DNA of 64,000 bases from Bartonella schoenbuchensis R1 (GTDB taxonomy: Bacteria; Pseudomonadota; Alphaproteobacteria; Rhizobiales; Rhizobiaceae). The stretch covers positions 620,001 to 684,000 of the forward strand of contig NZ_CP019789.1 in assembly GCF_002022685.1 (NCBI RefSeq). Direction: 5' to 3'. A program made the position numbers and the translations under genes. Position 1 is the stretch's first letter. Every line of letters begins with the position of its first letter. Positions 29,665 to 34,578 of this stretch are shown piece by piece. A model generated the notes under the pieces. That model had not been told where the DNA came from, searched no databases, and saw only the letters and a program-made list of their open reading frames with translations.

Positions 29665-30440
29665 GTGGCATTACCAGACTTTACTATGCGCCAGCTTTTA
29701 GAAGCAGGTGTACACTTTGGTCACCAGACACAGCGCTGGAATCCAAAAATGGCTCCCTATATTTACGGTCAGCGTAATAATATTCATATTATTGATCTTG
29801 CTCAGACTGTTCCTCTTTTGTATCAAGCGCTTAAACTTGTTTCAGATACGGTTGCGCAGGGGGGCGTGTTCTATTTGTTGGCACCAAACGGCAGGCGTCT
29901 GATATTATCGCTGATGCAGCTAGTCGATCGGCTCAATATTACGTTAACGCGCGTTGGCTTGGCGGTATGCTGACAAATTGGAAAACAATTTCTAATTCAA
30001 TACACCGTTTGCGTAAACTTGATAAAATTCTAACTACTGAAGCGCAGGGCTTTACTAAAAAAGAACGGTTAAATCTTGAGCGTGATCGTGAGAAATTGAA
30101 TCGTGCACTAGGTGGTATTAAGGATATGGGGTCTGTTCCAGATCTTATGTTTATTGTTGATACAAATAAGGAAAATATTGCCATTCAAGAAGCAAAGCGT
30201 TTGGGTGTTCCTGTAATTGCTATTGTTGATACAAATTGTGATCCTGATGGTATTGATTATCCAATTCCAGGTAATGATGACGCTTCGCGTGCGATTTCTC
30301 TTTACTGTGATCTTGTTGCACGTGCTGCTCTTGATGGTATTGCTCGTCAACAAGGTGCAATGAATATTGATGTAGGAGCTCAGGCTGATGTACCTGTGGA
30401 GCCTGCTTTGGAAGATGCGGTTTCGGTTGTGGAATCATGA
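29665..30440 (+). pseudogene. rpsB: 30S ribosomal protein S2, frameshifted as sequenced
   Basis: S2 is an essential small-subunit protein that recruits S1. GTG 29665 follows GAAAGGAT. The N terminus [28 protein letters not shown] and the C-terminal half ([20 protein letters not shown] ... [26 protein letters not shown]) are canonical. The frame breaks at a six-G run (29859-29864). One more G restores [24 protein letters not shown] and then [15 protein letters not shown], giving 258 aa, the expected length. Since S2 cannot normally be lost and every residue across the join is conserved, a base-calling error is far more likely than true inactivation. It is the first gene of rpsB-tsf-pyrH-frr. 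Confidence 0.93.
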
Positions 30441-32374: not shown

Positions 32375-32935
32375 ATGAATGTTACATCGATGATGGATGA
32401 TCTGAAACGTCGAATGGATGGCGCAGTTTCAGCTTTTAAACACGAATTGAGTGGTTTACGAACTGGGCGAGCTTCAGCCAGTTTATTAGAGCCATTAACA
32501 GTTGAGGCTTATGGTTCTACTGTGCCTATACAACAGGTTGCCAATATTTCTGTTCCAGAGCCGCGTATGCTTTCAGTTTCTGTATGGGATAAAACGATGG
32601 TAGGGGCTGTGGAGCGCGCTATTCGCGATTCTGGCCTTGGTTTCAATCCCATTACAGATGGTATGAATTTGCGTATTCCTATACCTGAATTAAATGAAGA
32701 ACGCCGTAAGGAGCTCGTAAAAATTGCACATCAATATGCAGAACAAGCTCGTGTTGCCGCTCGTCATGTTCGTCGTGATGGTATGGATAATTTGAAAAAA
32801 TTAGAAAAGGAAGGTGAAATTAGCCAAGATGAATCCCGTAATTTATCTGAAAAAGTTCAAAAACTTACAGATGAAACCATTACAGATATCGATAAGATTT
32901 TAGGTGTGAAAGAAGCAGATATTATGCAAGTTTAA
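32375..32935 (+). CDS. frr: Ribosome recycling factor
   Basis: RRF splits post-termination ribosomes together with EF-G. The 186-aa protein is full length. It shows the [42 protein letters not shown] segment and the [31 protein letters not shown] hinge (here [15 protein letters not shown]). The helical domain-I tail reads [22 protein letters not shown]. The next gene in relatives is uppS, which here is degraded. Confidence 0.97.
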
Positions 32936-32960: not shown

Positions 32961-33604
32961 ATATCTGCATTATATCGTCATTGTTGTGAACGCAAAAGAA
33001 TTGATAGGCACGTATAACAATTAACTTTGATAACAAAACATCAAAAATAGACGTTCTTTATTTGTTGTATTGTATACTCTGCAAGAAGGATAGGTCTGAA
33101 ATGGTTGATAGTTTTTGGTTTTTATCTGAAAATTAAATAAGGCCATCTGTTACTAACTAAATTCTCAATGAAATTATTAAAAATTTTTATTAAGTGTGTC
33201 TTATTGATCTGCATCATAGGGAATGTTCGTGCTTATATTATGGGTAATCGATTAAGTTTTTCATAAGGTGTTTTAGCAGTGCTTGTGAATACAGAGTATA
33301 TAGCGCAATATTAAATGTCTAAATCTTATCGTTACTTTTAAACGGGGAGTACAATAAAATAAGTTAAATACGCTGTTATCTCGTCCAGATTAATTTCTGA
33401 TGTTTTTTGATCTCCTGAGTATATTACAGATGGTTTGGCAGAAAAAAGATCTGGATATGAAACAGATGTTGGGCCTTGATTTAATTATTTGCAAAAGTAG
33501 TGAATAACAATTTTCTAATTTTTCGTATCAGGCAGTATGTTCTGAATTGTATTTTGTTTTTGTTTGATTTTGATGAACAAACTTTTGAGGCGACTATAGC
33601 TTGA
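32961..33604 (+). pseudogene. uppS: Decayed undecaprenyl diphosphate synthase (uppS) remnant
   Basis: The interval between frr and cdsA has no intact frame, but translating it in shifting frames recovers UppS landmarks in the right order. LIVFGF then SEN-stop-IRP (33105-33145) matches the LTLFAFSSENWKRP motif. NVRAYIMGNRLSF (33222-33260) matches NVRVRIIGDRERL. LDLIICKSSE-stop-QFSNF (33475-33522) matches DLLIRTSGEQRLSNF. YQAVCSELYFVFV (33526-33564), then FDFDEQTFEA in another frame (33563-33592), matches WQAAYSELVFVP...DFDEATF. A faint start-like LHYIVIVV lies at 32965. Several stops are substitutions and there are multiple frame changes, so this is genuine decay. UppS makes the C55 carrier for cell-wall synthesis, so another source is expected. 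Confidence 0.8.
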
Positions 33605-33762
33605 GATTATTGGTTTAATAGGCACTACTTAATATGCTGAAATAATTTGTAATCAGTGTCGGTAAAACTTTAAAAAATATGAATATATACATATCGCATG
33701 GGTAGAAAATTTTTCATGTTGATTTTTGTTTTATACCCTTTTTGAATTATTTGGAGATCGTT

Positions 33763-34578
33763 TTGTCTAATCTTGTTTCTCGTATTCTGACAGCTTTTGT
33801 TTTTGGCACTATTGCTTTGTGCTTGACATGGTTTGGAGGGGTTTTATTTTTTTTATTTGTGTGGGGAATTGGAGGCTTCATCCTTTATGAATGGGTTAAT
33901 ATTACTAAAGAAAAATGGAGCACTTTACAAAAAATATTAGCCGGGATTTTTTATCTGGTTTTTGGTTTGTTTTTAATTTTGGGTGCACCTGCTTTATTGA
34001 TCTTTGGTGTTTTAATAGTTTTAGCAGCACTGTTAAGTATTGGATCTCTTGGGAATATTGGTTGGGTTTTTTGTGGTTTTTTGTATGCATCTGTTCCTGT
34101 GGTGGCTCTATCCTTTTTACGAGGTCATGAAGTATTAGGATTTTGGGTGGTTATTTTTTTATTTGTGGTCGTATGGGGAACAGATATTGTTGCGTATTTT
34201 GGAGGTCGTGCATTTCGTGGTCCCAAATTAGCGTCGCGGTTTTCGCCTAATAAAACATGGTCAGGAGCGATTAGTGGTACACTTGCTGGAATTTTGGGGG
34301 GTATATTAGTTGCTTTTTGGGCTTTTGACAAAAGCCTAGTAAATTTTTTTATGCTATTACTTGCTTTAGTTTTGTCAATTATTTCACAAATAAGCGATTT
34401 AGGGCAATCATGGCTGAAAAGGCGATTTTCTGTTAAAGACTCTAGTTCTTTATTGCCTGGACATGGCGGATTTATGGATCGTATGGATGGTTTAATTGGT
34501 GCCGCTTTTCTTCTATATATTATTGGTTCGTTTATGTCTGGTATGAACACACCTTTTAACTTCTTTTATATGATTTAA
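33763..34578 (+). CDS. cdsA: Phosphatidate cytidylyltransferase
   Basis: CdsA makes CDP-diacylglycerol from phosphatidic acid and CTP at the inner membrane, the branch point for phospholipids. The 271-aa protein is polytopic with about seven hydrophobic segments. The C-terminal signature is present: VVWGTDIVAYFGGRAFRGPKLASRFSPNKTWSGAISG, followed by ISQISDLGQSWLKRRFSVKDSSSLLPGHGGFMDRMDGL. TTG 33763 (MSNLVSRILTAF) fits rhizobial starts and the GGAGA at 33752; the frame itself opens at 33742. In many rhizobia dxr lies between cdsA and rseP; here rseP follows directly after 16 bases. Confidence 0.95.
   Translation: MSNLVSRILTAFVFGTIALCLTWFGGVLFFLFVWGIGGFILYEWVNITKEKWSTLQKILAGIFYLVFGLFLILGAPALLIFGVLIVLAALLSIGSLGNIGWVFCGFLYASVPVVALSFLRGHEVLGFWVVIFLFVVVWGTDIVAYFGGRAFRGPKLASRFSPNKTWSGAISGTLAGILGGILVAFWAFDKSLVNFFMLLLALVLSIISQISDLGQSWLKRRFSVKDSSSLLPGHGGFMDRMDGLIGAAFLLYIIGSFMSGMNTPFNFFYMI

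Follow-up and report, generated by a model that had tools for sequence, protein, structure and literature searches.

UppS is the near-universal bacterial source of the lipid carrier of the cell wall; it is regarded as indispensable for bacteria with a wall and serves as a drug target. In the stretch of DNA analysed here, 64,000 nucleotides of Bartonella schoenbuchensis R1 (contig NZ_CP019789.1, positions 620,001 to 684,000; hereafter the window), the sequence between frr and cdsA is a uppS pseudogene in the ancestral place of the gene. It is very highly probable that this statement holds jointly with three others, namely that no further gene of the UppS family is found, that the pattern across the genus is not that of a single loss and that the later steps of carrier use are kept. 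As uppS is missing from most Bartonella species and yet the later wall genes that were checked are retained, these species must make or obtain the carrier by another route.

The uppS remnant

When the intact UppS of Bartonella sp. F02 was compared with the window by tblastn, a middle and a C-terminal segment were aligned in two different frames with internal stops (Table 1), jointly at an E value of 4.5e-16. The initial annotation had described UppS motifs in correct order and spacing, interrupted by stop codons and frame switches, and this description is borne out: tblastn recovers NVRAYIMGNRL, LIICKSSE-stop-QFSNF and SYQAVCSELYF, whilst SEN-stop-IRP is spanned by a weaker frame-1 match at 33101-33223 (E 0.11). 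None of 760 dinucleotide shuffles gave a match at E 0.1, the best shuffle reaching 0.11, and 23 of the 760 gave any match at E<=1. In the tblastn alignment the region corresponding to RTSGE reads CKSSE-stop, and the N-terminal part of the protein with its MDGNGRW motif was not recovered in the remnant by tblastn. A profile built from 12 related UppS sequences, run over the whole genome, meets the same place with two matches, at 653030-653308 (E 6.1e-5) and 653307-653564 (E 3.7e-4) of contig C1, which together correspond to window positions 33030-33564. The bounds proposed at first (32961 to 33604) fit the remnant, with statistical support confined to the shorter interval; the DFDEQTF motif beyond its end is readable in the DNA but was left unaligned by tblastn.

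The frr-cdsA gap of the window contains no open reading frame (ORF) of 60 or more amino acids, and its longest stop-to-stop forward frame is 42 codons, compared with at least 220 in intact relatives. The closest named records are those of B. melophagi K-2C and Bartonella sp. WD12.1, according to the tree and to Frr identities of 98-99%; we take both to belong to the ruminant lineage. A search of the E. coli genome collection gave no match. The remnant is 93.2-93.3% identical to the sequences of these two relatives (divergence 6.7-6.8%). In the flanking frr and cdsA genes, four-fold sites are 91.8-93.3% identical (divergence 6.7-8.2%) and codon positions 1 and 2 97.6-99.5% (0.5-2.4%). Since the remnant diverges like four-fold sites and more than positions 1 and 2, it is under no visible constraint, and the decay of uppS proposed in the initial annotation is upheld.

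Absence of UppS from the genome and from most of the genus

The initial annotation had suggested that the organism might carry another uppS, might have moved the gene or might use a different cis-prenyltransferase. The first two suggestions are not borne out: the UppS family model PF01255 has no match in the genome (E<=0.001; two contigs, 1,728,387 bases, 99.98% complete), although it matches all 14 control genomes, and the 12-UppS profile at E<=5 meets nothing there beyond the remnant. The third is not borne out for the UppS superfamily, of which these searches found no member; an enzyme unrelated to it and a carrier of trans-polyprenyl type are weighed below.

Among 71 Bartonella genomes PF01255 has a match in 15 (14 among the 67 good-quality genomes) and none in 56, including that of B. 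schoenbuchensis. Fourteen genomes with a second match to PAP2 phosphatase are, by this mark and by size, of the tamiae or bee type. PF01255 matches 13 of these; the exception, G062, has a completeness of 85% and also misses its MraY match. The remaining 57, taken as the mammal-infecting clade from such marks and from trees that include part of them, have uppS in two cases and lack it in 55, the genome under study among them. In the genomes without the gene, the 12-UppS profile at E<=5 meets nothing but remnant positions in five (G000, which is the genome under study, G029, G040, G047 and G070) and one weak match in G001 (E 0.06), which lies inside a 647-codon frame. In the bee-type genome G014 uppS is otherwise well conserved and is split into two overlapping frames, which points either to an error of sequencing or to loss in the very recent past.

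The frr-cdsA interval was also compared in relatives. Of 102 intervals (101 loci, some genomes being represented twice, and the window), 64 hold a frame of at least 220 codons, and the 38 without one comprise 37 Bartonella records and the window; for two of these (L038 and L050) the gap length is overstated, as the cdsA match begins late. By tblastn, five of the 38 decayed gaps reach E 1e-3 and seven reach 0.1, the remaining 31 giving no remnant at the latter value. In the clarridgeiae/rochalimae group (L055-L058) the gap is down to 420-454 bases.

Beyond the genus, PF01255 is found in 388 of 389 genomes of Alphaproteobacteria with a completeness of 95% or more, the sole miss being the genome under study. 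At the level of the phylum, with completeness of 98% or more, it is found in 247 of 249, both misses falling within Bartonella. The loss of uppS is thus real and genus-wide, and outside the genus it was not seen in the high-completeness genomes sampled; the absence extends over most of the genus, the condition under which the initial annotation had called it an unusual replacement, and a cell-wall gene has thus been lost or replaced in an uncommon way. In the literature, among open full texts (supplements and most subscription journals lying outside the search), no title or abstract opening was found which states that Bartonella lacks UppS. The word undecaprenyl is absent from the main text of a metabolic model of B. 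quintana (PMC11983613), and in a target study of B. bacilliformis uppP and murG are listed and the word uppS does not occur (PMC7416641).

Sequencing error as an alternative

An apparent pseudogene could result from errors of sequencing or assembly, or from an intact gene that was overlooked, and frame breaks do occur in conserved genes of this assembly. The essential gene rpsB, for ribosomal protein S2, extends over two frames at window positions 29665-30440, with a break at about 29870-29967, which is more likely to stem from sequencing indels in this assembly than from loss of the gene. Elsewhere in the genome (locus L136, contig C1, 1088000-1101000), murG, ftsW and murE each run over two frames at high identity and are open in genome G007; these splits too are likely to be assembly errors. 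Because conserved genes are also broken, frame switches alone prove nothing for uppS. The decay is nevertheless independent of this assembly, as 37 other Bartonella records have no frame of UppS length in the gap; in addition, the remnant diverges at the neutral rate from its closest relatives, and PF01255 has no match in another 55 Bartonella genomes, of which 53 are 99-100% complete. An artefact is therefore exceedingly improbable.

How often uppS was lost

Two genomes with an intact uppS, that of F02 (G046) and G006, presumably B. australis, are nested inside the clade that lost the gene. Their intact copies look functional by sequence: the UppS of G006 agrees with the profile set at all 77 of its invariant columns. 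A first tree, made with FastTree, gave weak support at the decisive forks (0.77 and 0.66). With 46 genes present in at least eight of nine taxa (15,932 amino acids, LG+G4), the hypothesis of a single loss in one clade was rejected by the approximately unbiased (AU) test (p-AU 0.000183). In the 46-gene tree A05 (G047, locus L023), which lost the gene, is sister to F02, which kept it, with support of 100/100. A05 holds the best preserved remnant (E 6.7e-24), which fits a recent loss. Hence uppS was either lost at least twice or regained by exchange between the keepers.

The simplest reading is that a clade-wide change made uppS dispensable and that at least two losses followed. Two results weigh against it. 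With six flanking genes, in a test that used 28 of the 54 rows of the first tree, a single loss was not rejected (p-AU 0.078). Furthermore, the UppS proteins of F02 and G006, which group together inside Bartonella in the UppS tree, are more alike than a regression on 41 genes predicts, with a residual of 7.7 points that exceeds those of all 41, the UppS values used (82% and 64%) being taken from separate comparisons. This excess likeness hints either at exchange, and hence regain, or at fast change on the stem followed by slow change.

The remaining carrier pathway

The genes checked for consumption, flipping and (by family) recycling of the carrier, those of MraY, MurJ and a PAP2 phosphatase, are kept. 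MraY is present in 70 of the 71 genomes and MurJ in all 71; in the genome under study the MraY equivalog scores 414 bits against a cut-off of 192. In G007, which we take to be B. bacilliformis, the mur and fts genes around mraY are open (all named by reading except MraY). A B. quintana study names MraY, among the peptidoglycan enzymes of its proteome, as lowered in level (PMC11983613). A PAP2 phosphatase gene occurs in all 71 genomes, adjoining fabD where inspected. The best NCBI model for the copy under study is that of undecaprenyl-diphosphate phosphatase, at 96 bits and so below the cut-off of 229. The BacA-type undecaprenyl-diphosphate phosphatase, UppP, was seen in one of the 71 genomes, that of B. 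tamiae (G063).

Trans-prenyltransferases of family PF00348 are represented by two full-length genes in each of the 71 genomes, keepers and losers alike, one similar to farnesyl diphosphate (FPP) synthase and one of the long-chain type. In the genome under study the types were assigned with NCBI models, the FPP synthase (IspA) scoring 314 bits against a cut-off of 275. The idea that the losers gained an extra trans-prenyltransferase was accordingly rejected. In three genomes (G001, G023 and G050) additional PF00348 matches are short C-terminal repeats of ispA that follow an intact ispA, as if by local duplication. A new gene beside PAP2 was likewise discarded as a candidate: weak Glycos_transf_4 matches in 13 genomes, below the cut-off, belong to a 326-amino-acid gene common to the tamiae and bee types. 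The neighbourhoods of both PF00348 genes and of mraY, surveyed by eye with nine proteins run against family models, showed no obviously new gene.

The source of the lipid carrier

It is probable that in most Bartonella the carrier on which peptidoglycan is built is not made by an enzyme of the UppS family; it would be either an all-trans polyprenyl phosphate taken from the metabolism of quinones or the product of a polyprenyl synthase family yet to be discovered. No other walled bacteria without a cis-prenyltransferase are known to us, so that in either case these Bartonella would be the first. The explanation favoured here, tentatively and at slightly less than even odds, is that the remaining long-chain trans-synthase replaces UppS as the source of the carrier. 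On this view, uppS would have become dispensable through a change that preceded or accompanied the radiation of the mammal-infecting Bartonella. The sole remaining long-chain polyprenyl diphosphate synthase, an octaprenyl/decaprenyl-type member of PF00348 that also feeds ubiquinone, would supply an all-trans carrier standing in for the mostly-cis C55 lipid; the PAP2 phosphatase would then yield the monophosphate, which MraY would use. This long-chain synthase is present in every genome without uppS (71 of 71 overall). The step from its product to the cell-wall carrier is a tentative proposal, somewhat less likely than not.

Several features of the envelope genes count against a trans-synthase replacement. 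Genes were ranked by the change on the stem, between the mammal-infecting clade and the tamiae/bee type, relative to the change within the mammal-infecting clade, an exploratory measure applied to 41 genes with 60% coverage in seven taxa. The long-chain synthase ranks 26th and MraY 30th of the 41, with no unusual stem change, which tells against the proposal since adaptation to a new lipid might have left larger changes in these enzymes. The pattern among the others is mixed, with FtsW in rank 35, PAP2 in rank 11, MurJ third, MurG second and FPP synthase first. An undiscovered enzyme family may also be the source of the carrier.

In its specific form, this alternative proposes that an unrelated, undescribed enzyme family makes the cis compound undecaprenyl diphosphate, was gained before the losses and rendered uppS redundant, so that the gene decayed several times. 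Losses nested among keepers fit a redundant enzyme in the common ancestor, the unremarkable rank of MraY would suit an unchanged lipid, and among the known polyprenyl synthase families searched there are the two PF00348 genes only. Set against this, no candidate gene was found, and the full conservation of uppS in the keepers (77 of 77 residues in G006) would be odd had it long been redundant. Such an enzyme is a possibility, slightly less likely than the all-trans carrier and together with it one of the two leading readings.

The high rank of FPP synthase raises the further possibility that IspA itself was altered and now also elongates to carrier length. When rooted with the outgroup, FPP synthase has a long branch on the side of the mammal-infecting clade (0.40 versus 0.09), and the flanking genes behave similarly (0.24 versus 0.04); the FPP synthase tree omitted four of 45 sequences, which were divergent outgroup copies, whilst all 45 (22 of the mammal-infecting clade, seven other Bartonella and 16 outgroup) entered the site counts. 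All 22 sequences from the mammal-infecting clade have KTA in place of a KTG motif, the glycine being kept in all seven other Bartonella and all 16 outgroup sequences, and the aspartate of a GD motif has become asparagine (GN) in 20 of the 22, with aspartate in seven of seven and 15 of 16, respectively. The alanine of KTA is also found in the long-chain synthase. These changes hint that polyprenyl metabolism may have been altered before the losses. An elongating IspA is nonetheless decidedly unlikely. The aromatic residue that precedes the first DDxxxxD motif, a limiter of chain length, shows no change in the 13 sequences inspected; the protein still passes the NCBI FPP synthase model; KTA is shared by the keepers; and the rank is exploratory, for one among several envelope genes examined.

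A supply from the host, with polyprenols such as dolichol scavenged from blood or host cells and carrier synthesis given up, would explain why clear losses are restricted to the inferred mammal-infecting clade and why a uppS match persists in 13 of the 14 bee- and tamiae-type relatives (split in one), the fourteenth being the 85% complete genome. Two of the three species for which growth without serum is reported are represented among the records and genomes compared here, and both are losers: three B. vinsonii records (L025, L026 and L028) have a decayed gap, and G023, which we take to be B. henselae Houston-1, has no PF01255 match. According to that report, B. henselae, B. quintana and B. 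vinsonii reach 1-5 x 10^8 colony-forming units (CFU)/mL in a serum-free medium of salts, N-Z-Amine A (a casein digest), organic acids, sugars and hemin with no lipid added, trace lipid from the casein digest or carry-over with the inoculum being possible (PMC4978770). Because three species grow in this manner, host supply is very unlikely.

Comparison with known systems

The decayed locus resembles the frr-uppS-cdsA cluster (PF01255, TIGR00055) of other Hyphomicrobiales in place and order, and the remnant aligns to residues 47-210 of the F02 UppS; unlike an intact uppS of that order, it lacks an open frame, contains internal stops and evolves neutrally. A non-homologous replacement of an essential enzyme has a precedent in Brucella and Bartonella, where Dxr is replaced by a DXR-like enzyme. 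In both cases a universally expected step lacks a known enzyme whilst the pathway on either side is retained, but here the affected step makes the peptidoglycan carrier itself and the replacing enzyme is still at the level of a candidate. All-trans synthases of the IspB/DdsA type (PF00348) serve quinone synthesis and normally feed ubiquinone only. Each of the 71 genomes has one such long-chain enzyme, from which a polyprenyl diphosphate of C40-C50 could come and whose product, in departure from this usual role, would in Bartonella serve peptidoglycan. Mycoplasmas are free of peptidoglycan and do not need UppS, whereas in Bartonella MraY, MurJ and the mur/fts cluster are retained.

The loss raises a testable question, namely whether the carrier is necessarily a mostly-cis C55 lipid or can be made by another enzyme family. 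It also predicts that UppS inhibitors will be ineffective against Bartonella without uppS, and that metabolic models of Bartonella are missing one step.

Features of the locus

Local gene order is rpsB-tsf-pyrH-frr-[gap]-cdsA-rseP-bamA, in which pyrH, frr, cdsA and rseP were checked with family models and rpsB, tsf and bamA were named from reading of the ORFs.

Table 1. Positions in the window of the uppS remnant and its two neighbours
Feature	Position	Strand	Basis
frr (ribosome recycling factor), upstream neighbour, intact	32375..32935	+	TIGR00496, 207 bits (cut-off 149); PF01765
uppS remnant, statistically supported extent	33030..33564	+	12-UppS profile matches; internal stops
uppS remnant, middle part	33072..33440	+	Frame 2, with stops; tblastn to F02 (L054) UppS residues 47-170, 35% identity
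uppS remnant, C-terminal part	33454..33558	+	Frame 3, one stop; tblastn to F02 (L054) UppS residues 175-210, 58% identity
DFDEQTF motif	33566..33586	+	Readable in DNA; outside the tblastn alignment
cdsA, downstream neighbour, intact	33763..34578	+	PF01148, 171 bits

For cdsA, comparison with the CdsA of G014 makes the TTG codon that opens the frame in Table 1 (MSNL..., as in relatives) the more likely start, in preference to position 33742 of the ORF list.
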